From the NCBI GenBank assembly GCA_944321865.1, contig CALUMZ010000006.1, positions 1 to 64,000 of the forward strand: a DNA stretch of 64,000 nucleotides, given 5' to 3'. Origin of the DNA: an uncultured Muribaculaceae bacterium. GTDB taxonomy: Bacteria > Bacteroidota > Bacteroidia > Bacteroidales > Muribaculaceae. Both the position numbers and the translations under genes were made by a program. This document shows positions 23,641-29,999 of the stretch, piece by piece; position 1 is the first letter of the stretch; the number at the start of each line of letters is the position of its first letter. Under the pieces are notes generated by a model. The model worked only from the letters and a program-made list of their open reading frames with translations, had not been told where the DNA came from and searched no databases.

Positions 23641-23672
23641 TTTGCATCATTGAATATTCTTGCATAACTTTG
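23641..23672 (+). promoter_or_regulatory. Promoter of the ilv operon
   Basis: TTTG (23641-23644), a 20-bp spacer and TAACTTTG (23665-23672) give a perfect Bacteroidetes -33/-7 promoter. Transcription would start near 23679, about 30 bp before the leader peptide start codon. Confidence 0.75.
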
Positions 23673-23707
23673 CCACAACATATATTATAAAGCAATTGAA
23701 TAGTAAT

Positions 23708-23800
23708 ATGAATGCAAACACTTCCATTAAGGGCATGCTATCGGCCAGCTTTCACGTCGTCATTTCGATTAGCGTCGTGGTGGCAATAACCATTGCATGA
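23708..23800 (+). CDS. ilv operon leader peptide (attenuator)
   Basis: A 30-codon open reading frame starting ATG AAT GCA and ending TGA. Its second half reads VVISISVVVAITIA; 9 of residues 17-29 are Val or Ile. This is the hallmark of a leader peptide whose translation senses charged tRNA for branched-chain amino acids. It sits between a strong promoter and an intrinsic terminator placed just before ilvD. No protein role is expected beyond ribosome stalling. Expression is inferred from architecture only. Confidence 0.82.
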   Translation: MNANTSIKGMLSASFHVVISISVVVAITIA

Positions 23801-23803
23801 TAA

Positions 23804-23888
23804 TGGAGGATAGCAAACATAACCCTACAAGAAAAATAAAGCGCATTTTGAATGACGCTTGCATGATAAAAAATAAACCTTTCCTCCA
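23804..23888 (+). promoter_or_regulatory. Candidate antiterminator pairing in the ilv leader
   Basis: TGGAGGA (23804-23810) is exactly complementary to TCCTCCA (23882-23888), which includes the inner end of the left terminator arm. The first element starts 4 bases after the leader stop codon, so a ribosome finishing the leader would cover it, while a ribosome stalled earlier at Val/Ile codons would leave it free to disrupt the terminator. A second competing pair is AGCGTC (23771-23776) with GACGCT (23854-23859), versus a local AAGCG/CGCTT hairpin (23839-23860). Confidence 0.5.
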
Positions 23889-23930
23889 CGCGCAGGCAAA
23901 AGACGGCGGAAAGGTTTATTTTTATTTAAA
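23869..23930 (+). terminator. ilv attenuator terminator
   Basis: A 16-bp uninterrupted stem pairs 23869-23884 with 23908-23923 (core AAATAAACCTTTCC with GGAAAGGTTTATTT), with a 23-base loop and a T-rich tail. It lies about 50 bp before the ilvD start codon and after the leader peptide, as expected for transcription attenuation. Confidence 0.8.
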
Positions 23931-23979
23931 CCCCGAACCCAACCGACAAACCTAACAAAAAAGAGATAAAAAACGAATC

Positions 23980-25803
23980 ATGAGTATCCCATTAAAAAGT
24001 GCCATATCGACACAAGGACGCAGAATGGCCGGAGCCAGAGCATTGTGGCGCGCCAACGGCATGAAACCCGAACAAATGGGCAAACCGATAATCGCCATTG
24101 TCAACTCGTTCACGCAATTCGTGCCGGGGCACACACACCTGCACGAAATAGGGCAAATAGTGAAACGGGAGATTGAACAATTGGGCTGTTTCGCCGCAGA
24201 ATTCAACACCATAGCCATAGACGACGGCATAGCAATGGGACACCAAGGTATGCTATACTCGTTGCCATCGCGCGACTTGATTGCCGACAGCGTGGAATAC
24301 ATGGTCAACGCACACTGTGCCGATGCAATGGTGTGCATCAGCAATTGCGACAAGATTACCCCCGGAATGCTGATGGCCGCAATGAGATTGAACATTCCCG
24401 CCATTTTCGTATCGGGAGGCCCGATGGAAGCCGGACATGCCGGCAACCGCGCACTCGACCTCATCGACGTCATGGTCGATGCCGCCGACGACAACATCGA
24501 CGATGAAGCCGTTGCCGAAGTCGAAAACCACGCTTGCCCCACTTGCGGCTCCTGCTCGGGAATGTTCACGGCCAATTCCATGAATTGCCTTACCGAGGCC
24601 TTGGGGCTCGCATTACCGGGAAACGGTACAATAGTAGCAACCCACGCCAACCGCATCAAGCTGTTCAAGCGCGCGGCGAAACTCATTGTCGACAACTGCA
24701 AAAAATATTATGATGAAGGCGACACAAGCGTGCTGCCACGCAACATAGCCGGCCGGCAAGCAATGCTTAACGCCATGACACTCGACATTGCAATGGGGGG
24801 CAGCACCAACACCGTGTTGCACCTGCTGGCCGTGGCCAACGAAGCCGAAACCCGTTTCACAATGGACGACATCGATGCATTGTCACGAAAAACTCCGGTA
24901 CTATGCAAGGTCGCTCCAAATTCAAGATACCACATCGAAGATGTCAACCGTGCCGGAGGCATAATGTCGATTATGAGCATTCTCGCACAAGCGGGTCTCG
25001 TCGACACCACCGTGCCCCGAGTGGACGGAATGACATTGGGAGAGGCCATAGACAACTATGCGACCGACGGCAACAAGTTCGACGTGGCCACGGCATGGCT
25101 GTGGAAAAGCGCCCCGGCGGGGATCAGGTCGATTACCCTCGGCGGGCAAGAAAATTACTATAAAGAACTCGACACCGATCGTGCTACAGGCTGCATACGC
25201 GACATCAAACATGCTTATGTGAAAGATGGCGGGCTGGCCGTGCTGCGCGGCAACATTGCCATGCACGGGTGCGTGGTGAAGACGGCAGGTGTCGACGAAA
25301 GCATTTTCCACTTCCGCGGCACTGCCAAGGTGTTCCTGTCACAGGAAGACGCAGTCGAGGGGATTCTCGGCGGCAAGGTTGTTGCAGGCGATGTCGTCGT
25401 TATCATATACGAGGGGCCAAAAGGCGGGCCGGGAATGCAAGAAATGCTATACCCCACCTCCTACATCAAGTCGCGCCACCTTGGCAAGCAATGCGCACTC
25501 ATCACCGACGGCCGTTTCTCGGGAGGGACTTCGGGGTTGTCGATAGGGCACATTTCACCCGAAGCGGCACGGGGCGGCAATGTAGGGCTGCTGCGCGATG
25601 GCGACATAATTGAAATAGACATTCCCCGACGCAGCATAAACGTGTTGCTTAGCGACGAGGAACTTGCGGCACGCCGCGCAGCCGAAGAAGCCAAAGGGAA
25701 AGATGCCTTTAAACCTGCGGGCCGCAACCGGACGGTATCAAAAGCACTGCAGGCATACGCCTCGATGGTGACATCGGCCGACCGCGGCGGTGTGCGGGAA
25801 TAA
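23980..25803 (+). CDS. ilvD: Dihydroxy-acid dehydratase
   Basis: Iron-sulfur enzyme converting 2,3-dihydroxy-isovalerate and its methylvalerate homologue to the 2-keto acids, the third step of valine/isoleucine synthesis. The 607-residue product has the cluster-binding cysteines in [10 protein letters not shown] and [17 protein letters not shown], and the C-terminal [23 protein letters not shown] block, which carries conserved active-site residues. Length matches the long IlvD form. It is the first structural gene after the attenuator. Confidence 0.98.
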
Positions 25804-25866: not shown

Positions 25867-27579
25867 ATGAGTGAAATTATTACAGGTGCCGAAGCGTTGA
25901 TACGTTCCCTCATTGCCGAGGGGGTTGATACCATATTCGGCTATCCGGGAGGAGCCATAATACCGGTTTTCGACCGCTTATACGACTATCGGCAGCAATT
26001 AAGGCACATACTCGTGCGCCATGAACAAGGCGCCACACATGCCGCACAAGGTTATGCCCGGGTGTCGGGACGCACCGGCGTGGTAATTGTCACATCGGGG
26101 CCGGCTGCCACAAACGTCATCACCGGCCTGAGCGATGCCATGATGGACAGCACGCCGCTTGTGGTCATAACAGGACAGGTGGGCAGCGAATTACTTGGCT
26201 CCGACGCATTCCAAGAAACCGATGTGATAGGCATTACGCAACCGGTCACCAAATGGAGTTACCAAATTCGCAATGTGGAAGACCTGCGCTGGGCCGTAGC
26301 CCGTGCTTTTTATATCGCTTCGACAGGAAGGCCGGGACCTGTAGTACTCGACTTTGCCAAAAACGCACAAGTCGCCACCATGGAGTGGAAAGGCTATAAG
26401 AAGTGCCACTTCGTGCGAACCTACGAGCCCAATCCCGACATAAACATTGCCGACGTAGAGACCGTTGCCCAAATGATCAACCAAGCCGAACGCCCGCTCA
26501 TAATATCGGGACACGGCGTGGAAATATCGGGAGGTGAAAAAGAATTGCTTAACCTTGCCGAGAAAGCACAAATCCCCGTAGTGACCACATTGCTGGGAAT
26601 GTCAACCATCGACTCGGGGGCGAAATTGTTCAAGGGGCTGGTGGGTATGCACGGCAATGTGGCCGCCAACGTGGCTATTTGTCGTTGCGACCTGCTCATT
26701 GCCATCGGCATGCGGTTTGACGACCGCGTAACCGGCGACCCCGGGCATTTTGCAAATCAGGCAAAAATAGTACATATCGACATCGATTCGTCGGAGTTTG
26801 GCAAAATAATAAAGCCCGATGCCACCATTCATGGCGATGCCCGCAAGGTGCTTGCATTGCTGGCCGGCTGTGTCGCTCCTGCACAACATGACGAATGGCT
26901 CGCCGACTTTGACCGGGCTTGGCAGGTGGAAAATGAGAAAGTCATAGCTCCCGAGCTGAACAGCACCCGGCGCATAACAATGGGTATTGTGGCCCGCCAT
27001 GTGGCCGAAGCCGCCGGGAAAGGTGCCGTATTAGTGACCGATGTGGGGCAAAACCAAATGATGTCGGCCCGCTACTTCAAATACACGGCACCGCGCAGCA
27101 TCATCACATCGGGGGGGCTGGGCACCATGGGATTCGGCTTGCCTGCCGCCATCGGTGCAAAAATAGGTGCTCCCGAACGCACAGTGTGCTTCTTCACCGG
27201 TGACGGTGGCTTGCAAATGACTGTCGAGGAATTGGGCGTGATATTGCAATATGGCATCGACGTGAAAATCATATTGCTCAACAACAACTTCCTTGGCATG
27301 GTGCGCCAGTGGCAAGACTTGTTCTACGACCGGCGGTTCTCCGAGACACAACTCGTCAACCCTAATTTTGTGATGCTCGCCAACTCCTACGGAATCGCAG
27401 CCGAAGATGTGGAGACACTCGACAAGCTCGATGCCGCCATCGACCGCATGCTCGCCCATAAAGGCGCATACTTGCTCAACGTCAACATCGACCCCGAAGA
27501 ACTTGTATATCCCATGATTCCTGCCGGGGCTCCCATAAGCACCATATTGCTGAACAAGGATGAAAAGTATGAAAATTAA
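25867..27579 (+). CDS. ilvB: Acetolactate synthase, large catalytic subunit
   Basis: Thiamine-diphosphate enzyme condensing two pyruvates, or pyruvate with 2-ketobutyrate. The 570-residue product shows the N-terminal GYPGGAIIPVFDRL, the catalytic Glu in RHEQGATHAAQGYAR, the quinone/FAD-binding middle domain (GMHGNVAANVAI), and the C-terminal ThDP motif GDGGLQMTVEELG ending in NNNFLGM. It lies 63 bp after ilvD. Its 3' end overlaps possible starts of the regulatory subunit gene. Confidence 0.97.
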   Translation: MSEIITGAEALIRSLIAEGVDTIFGYPGGAIIPVFDRLYDYRQQLRHILVRHEQGATHAAQGYARVSGRTGVVIVTSGPAATNVITGLSDAMMDSTPLVVITGQVGSELLGSDAFQETDVIGITQPVTKWSYQIRNVEDLRWAVARAFYIASTGRPGPVVLDFAKNAQVATMEWKGYKKCHFVRTYEPNPDINIADVETVAQMINQAERPLIISGHGVEISGGEKELLNLAEKAQIPVVTTLLGMSTIDSGAKLFKGLVGMHGNVAANVAICRCDLLIAIGMRFDDRVTGDPGHFANQAKIVHIDIDSSEFGKIIKPDATIHGDARKVLALLAGCVAPAQHDEWLADFDRAWQVENEKVIAPELNSTRRITMGIVARHVAEAAGKGAVLVTDVGQNQMMSARYFKYTAPRSIITSGGLGTMGFGLPAAIGAKIGAPERTVCFFTGDGGLQMTVEELGVILQYGIDVKIILLNNNFLGMVRQWQDLFYDRRFSETQLVNPNFVMLANSYGIAAEDVETLDKLDAAIDRMLAHKGAYLLNVNIDPEELVYPMIPAGAPISTILLNKDEKYEN

Positions 27580-28162
27580 CGCAATCATGGAAGAAAACAA
27601 CAATAAAGAGCTATTTACCGTAACTGTGTTCTCCGAGAACCGCGTGGGATTGCTCAACCAGATATCTATCATATTCACCCGTCGCAAGCTCAACATCGAG
27701 TCGCTGTCGGTATCCCCTTCTTCAATAAAGGGGGTGCACAAATTCACCATCACGGCATACGCCGACGAAACCACCATAGCAAAACTGGTGCAACAGGTGG
27801 AAAAACGCATCGATGTGCTCAAGTCGTTCTATTACCGCGACGATGAGATTGTTTATCAAGAGGTGGCATTGTATAAAGTGCCAACGGCCGAATTGCTCAA
27901 TGAAAAGAATCTTGAAGCAATAATCCGCCACCACAATGCACGCATCCTCGAAATAACCAACGAATACACCGTAATAGAAAAAACGGGACACGACGACGAG
28001 ACGACAGCACTGTTTGAAGAACTCAAGCGGTTCGACATACGCCAATTCGTGCGCAGCGGCCGCGTTGCCGTCACCAAGTCGCCCGAAGAATATGTGACAA
28101 TGTACATCGAAGAACGCGCCCGCCGCAAAGAGGAGGTAGAACGATGCTTGAACGCAGAATAA
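27560..28162 (+). CDS. ilvN: Acetolactate synthase, small regulatory subunit
   Basis: Regulatory partner of IlvB with an N-terminal ACT domain (LFTVTVFSENRVGLLNQISIIFTRRKLNIESLSV written here only in part: ENRVGLLNQIS and RRKLNIESLSV) that binds valine for feedback inhibition, followed by a C-terminal IlvH-like domain. The longest form is 200 residues. Three starts are possible: ATG 27560 and 27569, both inside ilvB, and ATG 27587 (MEENNNKELF), 7 bp after the ilvB stop. The last starts closest to the ACT domain and is equally plausible. The end overlaps the thioesterase start by 19 bp. Confidence 0.93.
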   Translation: MKSMKINAIMEENNNKELFTVTVFSENRVGLLNQISIIFTRRKLNIESLSVSPSSIKGVHKFTITAYADETTIAKLVQQVEKRIDVLKSFYYRDDEIVYQEVALYKVPTAELLNEKNLEAIIRHHNARILEITNEYTVIEKTGHDDETTALFEELKRFDIRQFVRSGRVAVTKSPEEYVTMYIEERARRKEEVERCLNAE

Positions 28163-28920
28163 CCGAAGAAAACGGTGTCTACACCCACGAATTTTTCCTC
28201 GCGGCCGGCGAATGCAACGCCGAGAGCCAAATGCCGCTGCCGATGCTTGTGGGGCGGCTCATACGTGTAGCCACCGAACATGCCAACGCCACTAACCTCG
28301 GCTACGAGCGTTTTGCCCCCGAGGGACGCGGTTGGGTGCTCACCAAGCTCGCCTTGGAGATGAAACAATTTCCCCAAGTCAACGACCGGTACACCATACT
28401 CACATGGATAGATGCCACCGGAAAGTTGCTGACGTTCCGCAACTTTTCAATCCTGCGCAACGATGAAGTCGTGGGGTATGTGCGTTCGGAGTGGGCAATG
28501 ATCGACATGCACAGCCGCCGCCTGAGCGACATATCGATGGTAAAGGAACTTGCAGCATCGGCCCGTCCCGACGTGCCGTGCCCCATTCAACCACCCTCGA
28601 GGCTCACGGCTTTGAAACAATACCGCAGCGGAAGCCGCACCTTCGGCTACTGCGACGTCGACTTCAACCGCCACGTCAACACGGTGAGATATGTGGAATG
28701 CCTGATGGACCAGTGGGACATGGAACACTACGACCGCTACACGATTTCTCGATTCGAGGTGACATTTGCCAAGGAATGCTACTATGGATCGACCGTCGAA
28801 GTAAGAATCGACGATGCCAATCCTGCCGACTGCCGCGCCGAGATAGTCAATGCCGGCACGGTGCATTGCCGGGCACGGTTCATGTTCACCGAACGCGACA
28901 GACAACAATTACAACAATAA
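28144..28920 (+). CDS. Acyl-ACP thioesterase (FatA/FatB-like)
   Basis: Hydrolyses acyl-acyl-carrier-protein to release free fatty acid. The 258-residue product has the two hotdog halves of the acyl-ACP thioesterase family: LVGRLIRVATEHANATNLGYERF followed by WVLTKLALEMKQFPQ in the first, and CDVDFNRHVNTVRYVE in the second, matching the family's Asp-x-N-x-H-V-N catalytic motif (Asn/His near residues 176-178). It is embedded between ilvN and ilvC, overlapping ilvN by 19 bp. Why a thioesterase should sit in a branched-chain amino acid operon is not evident from its own sequence; chain specificity cannot be read off. (The first motif is quoted over 20 residues only as adjoining pieces LVGRLIRVATEH and ANATNLGYERF.). 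Confidence 0.88.
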   Translation: MLERRITEENGVYTHEFFLAAGECNAESQMPLPMLVGRLIRVATEHANATNLGYERFAPEGRGWVLTKLALEMKQFPQVNDRYTILTWIDATGKLLTFRNFSILRNDEVVGYVRSEWAMIDMHSRRLSDISMVKELAASARPDVPCPIQPPSRLTALKQYRSGSRTFGYCDVDFNRHVNTVRYVECLMDQWDMEHYDRYTISRFEVTFAKECYYGSTVEVRIDDANPADCRAEIVNAGTVHCRARFMFTERDRQQLQQ

Positions 28921-28952: not shown

Positions 28953-29999
28953 ATGGCAATTCTGAATTTTGGCGGAGTTGACGAGAAAGTAGTCACCCGC
29001 GACGAATTTACGCTTGAAAAAGCCCGGGAAGTATTGAAAAACGAGACTATCGCAGTCATCGGCTACGGCGTGCAAGGTCCCGGCCAAGCCCTCAATTTGC
29101 GTGACAACGGATTCAAGGTAATCGTAGGGCAACGCAAAGAAAGCAAAACATGGGACAAGGCCGTTGCCGACGGTTGGGTACCGGGCGAAACATTGTTTGA
29201 AATCGAAGAGGCAGCCAGCCGTGGCACCATCATCGAATACCTGCTTAGCGATGCCGCACAGATAGCCCTGTGGCCTACCGTCAAGAAGCACCTCACCGCA
29301 GGCAAGGCCCTCTACTTCTCACACGGGTTCGGCATCACATACAGCGAGCGCACCGGCATCATTCCGCCAAAGGATGTTGACGTGATAATGGTGGCTCCGA
29401 AAGGCTCGGGCACATCGTTGCGCACCATGTTCCTGCAAGGGCGCGGCATCAATTCGAGCTATGCTGTCTATCAAGATGCCACCGGCCACGCCCTCGACCG
29501 CTGCATAGCCCTCGGCATAGGCGTTGGCTCGGGCTACCTGTTCGAGACAACTTTCAAGCGCGAAGTTTACAGCGACCTCACCGGCGAACGCGGTTCACTG
29601 ATGGGTGCAATACAAGGATTGCTGCTCGCCCAGTATGAAGTATTGCGCGAAAACGGCCACACACCGTCGGAAGCATTCAACGAGACCGTCGAGGAACTCA
29701 CGCAGTCGCTCATGCCGCTGTTTGCCGCCAAAGGTATGGACTGGATGTATGCCAACTGCTCTACCACGGCACAACGCGGAGCTCTCGACTGGATGGGACC
29801 GTTCCACGATGCCATCAAGCCGGTAATGGAAAAGCTCTATGAAAGCGTAAAGACCGGCAACGAAGCTCAAATTTCAATCGACACCAACAGCCAACCCGAC
29901 TATCGTGAAAAATTAAATGCCGAACTGAAGGCATTGCACGACAGCGAAATGTGGCGAACGGGTGAAACCGTGCGCAAGTTGCGTCCCGAAAACAACTAA
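28953..29999 (+). CDS. ilvC: Ketol-acid reductoisomerase
   Basis: NAD(P)H-dependent, magnesium-dependent enzyme converting acetolactate to dihydroxy-isovalerate. The 348-residue product has an N-terminal Rossmann fold with GYGVQGPGQALNLRDNG, a cofactor loop GQRKESKTWDKA, VDVIMVAPKGSG, and the C-terminal knotted domain with the metal ligands in the SDLTGERGSLMGAIQG region and ETVEELTQSLMP. Its size is that of the short class I enzyme. Last gene of the operon, 32 bp after the thioesterase; a hairpin element starts immediately after its stop codon. Confidence 0.97.
   Translation: MAILNFGGVDEKVVTRDEFTLEKAREVLKNETIAVIGYGVQGPGQALNLRDNGFKVIVGQRKESKTWDKAVADGWVPGETLFEIEEAASRGTIIEYLLSDAAQIALWPTVKKHLTAGKALYFSHGFGITYSERTGIIPPKDVDVIMVAPKGSGTSLRTMFLQGRGINSSYAVYQDATGHALDRCIALGIGVGSGYLFETTFKREVYSDLTGERGSLMGAIQGLLLAQYEVLRENGHTPSEAFNETVEELTQSLMPLFAAKGMDWMYANCSTTAQRGALDWMGPFHDAIKPVMEKLYESVKTGNEAQISIDTNSQPDYREKLNAELKALHDSEMWRTGETVRKLRPENN

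Follow-up and report, generated by a model that had tools for sequence, protein, structure and literature searches.

A probable attenuator ahead of the ilv operon

The ilvD-ilvB-ilvN-orf-ilvC operon of an uncultured Muribaculaceae bacterium is very probably controlled by a ribosome-mediated transcription attenuator of the classical type, that of the trp, his and ilv operons. The element that we describe upstream of ilvD in the window (the whole stretch of 64,000 nucleotides analysed here) is real and conserved: it belongs to a known kind of attenuator that has scarcely been described in its phylum, and it represents a new and widespread family of ribosome-mediated transcription attenuation in Bacteroidota. 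Its anatomy, its conservation, the covariation of the 1:2 and 2:3 pairings, the footprint geometry and the codon bias are demonstrated below. The classical parts are all there: a leader ORF in which codons for the operon's own amino acids abound; an intrinsic terminator (3:4) before the first gene; an antiterminator (2:3), evidenced by covariation, that is mutually exclusive with this terminator; a protector hairpin (1:2), evidenced by covariation and by the MFE fold, that joins the leader ORF to region 2; and, in a geometric model, a region 2 that a ribosome on the leader stop codon covers and one stalled at the control codons leaves exposed. The features are the following, with their coordinates in the window.

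23641-23644 and 23665-23672, + strand: promoter, -33 TTTG and -7 TAACTTTG (sequence, Bacteroidota sigma type)
23708-23800, + strand: leader peptide ORF MNANTSIKGMLSASFHVVISISVVVAITIA, 30 codons, stop codon TGA at 23798-23800
23721-23729, + strand: region 1 (CTTCCATTA), within the leader ORF, partner of 23801-23809 (MFE fold)
23801-23810, + strand: region 2 (TAATGGAGGA), with region 1 or region 3 as alternative partners (covariation, stall model)
23869-23888, + strand: region 3, terminator left arm, TCCTCCA (23882-23888) innermost (sequence, fold)
23905-23927, + strand: region 4, terminator right arm and T-rich tail (fold)
23980-25803, + strand: ilvD, dihydroxy-acid dehydratase, first gene of the operon (TIGR00110 and NF009103 above cut-off)
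25867-27579, + strand: ilvB, acetolactate synthase large subunit (TIGR00118 above cut-off)
27560-28162, + strand: ilvN/ilvH, acetolactate synthase small subunit (TIGR00119 above cut-off)
28144-28920, + strand: ORF between ilvN and ilvC, overlapping the end of ilvN (ORF call)
28953-29999, + strand: ilvC, ketol-acid reductoisomerase (TIGR00465 above cut-off)

The genes follow one another in the order ilvD-ilvB-ilvN-orf-ilvC, with folE upstream, and the operon's enzymes make the very amino acids for which the leader codes. The ORF at 28144-28920 matched no NCBIfam family; we presume that it resembles an acyl-ACP thioesterase. As for IlvD itself, the protein of the window is 66-71% identical to enzymes of Desulfobulbaceae and other Proteobacteria, while IlvD-like proteins outside Bacteroidales, in a class-wide sample, are of a different type and just about 30-40% identical to it; an old horizontal transfer is possible, judging from these identities.

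The original prediction, made from the sequence alone, had proposed most of this layout, and most of it is borne out: the -33/-7 promoter, in which a 20-nt spacer separates TTTG from TAACTTTG, as in the Bacteroidota -33/-7 type; the Val/Ile-rich leader of 30 codons; and the 16-bp intrinsic terminator before ilvD, whose left arm carries TCCTCCA on its inner side. The second half of the leader reads VVISISVVVAITIA, and its control codons are, in order, GTC GTC ATT ... ATT ... GTC GTG GTG ... ATA ... ATT. The terminator stem has 16 contiguous pairs (23869-23884 with 23908-23923), then a mismatch and 2 further pairs; its hairpin has a computed energy of -21.2 kcal/mol, 56 nt separate its end from the ilvD ATG (23980), and the segment 23800-23930 folds with a z-score of -3.35 against shuffles. 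TGGAGGA does lie at 23804-23810, complementary to TCCTCCA at 23882-23888, but with 3 bases intervening after the leader stop codon rather than the 4 proposed. Region 1 had been missed, and it completes the classical set of 1:2, 2:3 and 3:4 pairings. A generic sigma-70 and terminator scan found neither this promoter nor this terminator, since Bacteroidota promoters and loops of more than 8 nt lie outside its range. We also observed an exact 11-nt direct repeat, TTGCATGATAA, which lies once at the leader stop codon (23793-23803) and again just 5' of the base of the terminator (23859-23869); the relatives aligned within the genus show no such second copy.

Distribution and conservation of the layout

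We searched for the same layout in the upstream regions of ilvD genes taken from named genome records and from members of the genus and family to which the window belongs, with a rule requiring an ORF of 15-60 codons, at least 8 Ile, Leu or Val among 14 residues, and an intrinsic terminator at most 110 nt downstream. This rule was satisfied upstream of 61 of the 143 ilvD genes from Bacteroidota, of none of the 22 from other phyla and in none of 286 dinucleotide shuffles; the layout is therefore beyond chance. Over 165 kb scanned on both strands (the window and the loci), it fires at the ilvD position and at a few other places, in calls that appear to be spurious. Bearers include Bacteroides, Phocaeicola, Tannerellaceae, Dysgonomonadaceae, Odoribacter, Alistipes, Saccharicrinis, Prolixibacteraceae, Labilibaculum and Heminiphilus; cultured relatives that carry it are Heminiphilus faecis (L001), Bacteroides graminisolvens (L012), Phocaeicola faecalis (L016) and Odoribacter laneus (L074). 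One has to keep in mind that the layout is not universal, even within Bacteroidales: 82 of the 143 Bacteroidota upstream regions fail the rule, among them those of most rumen Prevotella and of many other Muribaculaceae sampled. The later tests were run on 57 loci, after excluding three doubtful ones (L060, L076 and L140) and L117, a duplicate of L001. In Labilibaculum sp. K2S (L061, 2637-2950), two BCAA-rich leader ORFs stand in tandem 5' of ilvD, each with its own terminator, a sequence arrangement that suggests a double attenuator.

Conservation of the leader frame in relatives, on which the original prediction had staked itself, is clear within the genus, where the frame is kept in 9 of 9 genomes and all indels are multiples of three. 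The terminator arms CCTTTCCTCC...GG(C/T)GGAAAGG are likewise kept across these 9 genomes, the spacers and the terminator-to-ilvD gap vary among them, and the promoter is kept wherever the alignment extends that far. In all 9 a GGAGG or a near variant is found at the leader stop codon or directly after it. Further afield, terminator left arms of the CCTTTCTC type recur across Bacteroidales, and 53 of 55 loci have a -7 motif TANNTTTG no more than 110 nt 5' of where the leader starts.

Covariation of the alternative pairings

Because the loci had been chosen on the ORF and the terminator alone, with no part played by the 1:2 and 2:3 pairings, the selection did not favour the pairings under test. 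For each pairing, we compared the duplex energy of each locus's own segments with that of segments swapped between loci, over 5000 permutations. Across the 57 loci, regions 2 and 3 pair at -16.7 kcal/mol with their own partners against -13.1 when swapped (z -8.9, 0 of 5000 permutations), and regions 1 and 2 at -18.7 against -13.9 kcal/mol (z -11.0, again 0 of 5000). Collapsing similar loci to 46 leaves z at -8.8 for 2:3 and -8.5 for 1:2. In the control pairing of regions 1 and 3, own and swapped segments did not differ over the same 57 loci, and none of the other controls (UP:R2, GAP:R2, GAP:R3, R1:core and R2:core) was significant. The 1:2 pairing also covaries inside the genus (z -4.2, 0 of 4000); for 2:3 the genus gives z -0.4, as regions 2 and 3 are nearly invariant there, so that covariation is invisible at that level. 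The compensatory changes that had been anticipated between the TGGAGGA and TCCTCCA regions thus appear across Bacteroidales, where the 2:3 pairing covaries.

Covariation of this kind bears on whether the terminator itself is switched. A translated leader could act instead through, for instance, translational coupling, ribosome protection of the mRNA or Rho-dependent termination, and these routes too would need a conserved translated leader; we hold them to be highly improbable, given that a strong intrinsic terminator and a conserved competing pairing are present in all scored loci, and that the wide variation of the terminator-to-ilvD gap (10th to 90th percentile about 20-103 nt across loci) speaks against reinitiation or coupling.

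Codon bias of the leaders

Synonymous codon use in the leaders departs strongly from that of the ilvD genes of the same loci: GTC makes up 49% of Val codons in the leaders against 14% in ilvD, ATT 76% of Ile codons against 38%, and CTA 32% of Leu codons against 3% (P < 1e-27 for each). Ser, Thr, Ala and Arg codons show some skew in the leaders as well, so part of the bias may stem from RNA structure. CTA is the Leu codon singled out by theory and experiment for the attenuation of enteric Leu operons (PMC1183508). The draft genome gives 45 tRNA matches, with tRNA-Val(UAC) as the sole tRNA-Val; tRNA-Ile(GAU) is also missing from these matches, which marks the list as incomplete, and GTC may, to the extent of this list, lack a G34 tRNA in this genome. 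At the level of nucleotides, the string GTC GTG G (23774-23780 in the window) recurs in most of the 57 leaders.

The same skew weighs on another reading of the leader, namely that the hydrophobic 30-residue product is a functional small (membrane) protein whose ORF has a terminator of its own, the ilvD promoter lying further downstream. Membrane proteins this small are common, and the peptide is both hydrophobic and conserved in the genus; across Bacteroidales, however, the peptides share a composition (Val 21%, Ile 15%, Leu 13%) and little sequence, the leader nucleotides covary with untranslated RNA downstream, synonymous codons are far from evenly used and region 2 is located right at the stop codon, which together make this reading a shade less probable still than the ribosome-dependent routes above. 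Least probable of all is a metabolite- or tRNA-binding element (a T-box or another riboswitch) driving the terminator without leader translation, for although a terminator with an alternative pairing before a biosynthetic operon is typical of both, no Rfam family, the T-box and the catalogued leader and attenuator covariance models included, matched upstream of ilvD (gathering score, or E up to 1), and what is conserved is not an aptamer-like region but a frame rich in BCAA codons, precisely placed relative to region 2.

A model of the ribosome's position

Attenuation by a translating ribosome, the reading that we retain, would proceed as follows. Transcription would begin a few bases past 23672 and the leader peptide would then be translated; a ribosome arriving at the leader stop codon would cover region 2 and, upon its departure, region 1 would re-pair with region 2. 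With region 2 either covered or engaged in 1:2, region 3 would be free to form the 3:4 terminator, and transcription would stop 56 nt before ilvD. When charged Val-, Ile- or Leu-tRNA is scarce, the ribosome would stall at the control codons that separate region 1 from region 2, holding 1:2 apart and leaving region 2 exposed to pair with region 3 once the latter emerges; with 2:3 formed, there would be no terminator and the operon would be transcribed. If the leader were not translated, 1:2 would form and the terminator would follow (superattenuation). We infer translation of the leader, ribosome stalling within it, this direction of the response, and a coupling of transcription and translation as close as the mechanism demands.

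We modelled the ribosome as shielding RNA up to 13 nt past the first base of the A-site codon. In silico, the probability of 2:3 before region 4 is made is about 1 with the ribosome at codons 19-29, a range into which the codons of the conserved SISVV fall; with the ribosome at codons 30-31 it is 0, and stalls at codons 14-18 give just 0.45-0.6. Across loci, the median 2:3 core spans -1 to +9, counted from the first base of the stop codon, and in 67% of them it overlaps positions 0 to +13 of that codon. This footprint geometry fits the earlier proposal that a ribosome finishing the leader would mask TGGAGGA and that stalling would release it. Once region 4 is present, the terminator, as the more stable end state, always wins at equilibrium, so antitermination would have to be kinetic. 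In established attenuators, the antiterminator does act kinetically (PMC1183508).

leuA and other amino acid operons of the same genome

Upstream of leuA in the same genome (L172 / L220), we found the -7 TAACTTTG motif and a CTA-rich leader, MNNCLSIENISLSILLLNQHSR, at -173 to -104 relative to leuA. Its codons run ATG...TCA CTA TCT ATT CTA CTA CTA AAT...TAG, with CTA in 4 of 5 Leu codons. TGGAAGA stands immediately 3' of the leader stop codon, and a terminator, CCTTTCTTcc...AAGAAAGG, lies 19 nt 5' of leuA. The arm and loop of this terminator contain TCTTCCA, with which TGGAAGA could form a 7-bp pairing; neither the MFE fold nor one duplex run singled this pairing out. The arrangement is likely a second attenuator built on the ilvD plan, with a putative antiterminator read from the letters. 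Several other members of the family carry similar leucine/isoleucine leaders and terminators before leuA. In the same genome, neither a His leader nor a terminator was seen upstream of hisG; the trpE model gave only matches below the cut-off, all on one 350-aa ORF, which we take for a chorismate-binding relative.

We lean towards the view that Bacteroidales possess an uncatalogued set of ribosome-mediated attenuators of their own, covering at least the ilv and leu operons and sharing one plan: a region 2 that is rich in purines and placed at the leader stop codon, a terminator arm of the CCUUUC type, and control codons (GTC, CTA, ATT) chosen for their sensitivity to tRNA charging, as selective-charging theory expects, all this in a phylum not known to rely on Shine-Dalgarno initiation.

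Significance and comparison with known systems

That peptide attenuation is rarely documented in Bacteroidota, as the original prediction had remarked, agrees with the literature that we searched, in which few subscription journals were covered and no description of an ilv attenuator from this phylum was found. A comparative survey of attenuation in bacteria, reportedly published by Lopatovskaya et al. in 2010, could include Bacteroidetes cases. The authors of another survey of 2010 stated that they knew of leader-peptide systems from Proteobacteria and Actinobacteria only, and added Firmicutes (PMC2965389). Our comparative evidence points to ribosome-mediated attenuation of BCAA synthesis in a dominant group of gut bacteria, for which we found no published case. 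The leaders also offer, in a distant phylum, an independent test of the idea that control codons are chosen for tRNA-charging sensitivity. Lastly, as the mechanism needs a ribosome close behind RNA polymerase, the ilvD leaders are ready-made reporters of whether transcription and translation are coupled in Bacteroidota.

Within the phylum, the closest published observation comes from Bacteroides thetaiotaomicron, whose long 5' UTRs contain sORFs reminiscent of attenuation leader peptides (Ryan et al. 2020, PMC7366714); the example given there is BT_4401, a hypothetical protein, and the main text names neither ilvD nor a mechanism. The actinobacterial ilvBNC operon of Corynebacterium glutamicum (PMC11857589) resembles the window system, as far as its description goes, in that a leader peptide precedes its ilv genes together with hairpins for terminator and antiterminator, in another phylum and another operon; the likeness is one of description. 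With the leu attenuator of Salmonella and E. coli, for which CUA is the control codon expected by sensitivity theory (PMC1183508), the window's genome shares a CTA-rich leader and a terminator before leuA, and the ilvD leaders, too, show a tenfold enrichment of CTA; phylum and sequences differ.

The nearest counterpart is the ilvGMEDA operon of E. coli and Salmonella, where a Val/Ile/Leu leader (ilvL) precedes a BCAA operon and a terminator has competing pairings. The codon string of ilvL, ATTAGCGTGGTGGTG (sequence verified), resembles ATTAGCGTCGTGGTGG of the window, with ATT and GTG/GTC favoured in both, and over 16 nt (GATTAGCGTsGTGGTG, 23767-23782 in the window) the two are nearly identical. 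This likeness and the identity of IlvD to proteobacterial enzymes led us to consider common descent with the enteric ilvL attenuator; it is not supported here, since no leader was found 5' of the 22 non-Bacteroidota ilvD genes sampled and convergence is the simpler account, so that the 16-nt likeness probably reflects convergence under the same codon preferences. Unlike ilvGMEDA, the window system belongs to another phylum, has a Bacteroidota promoter and the gene order ilvD-B-N-orf-C, and uses a region 2 that is short, rich in purines and located at the leader stop codon or directly after it.
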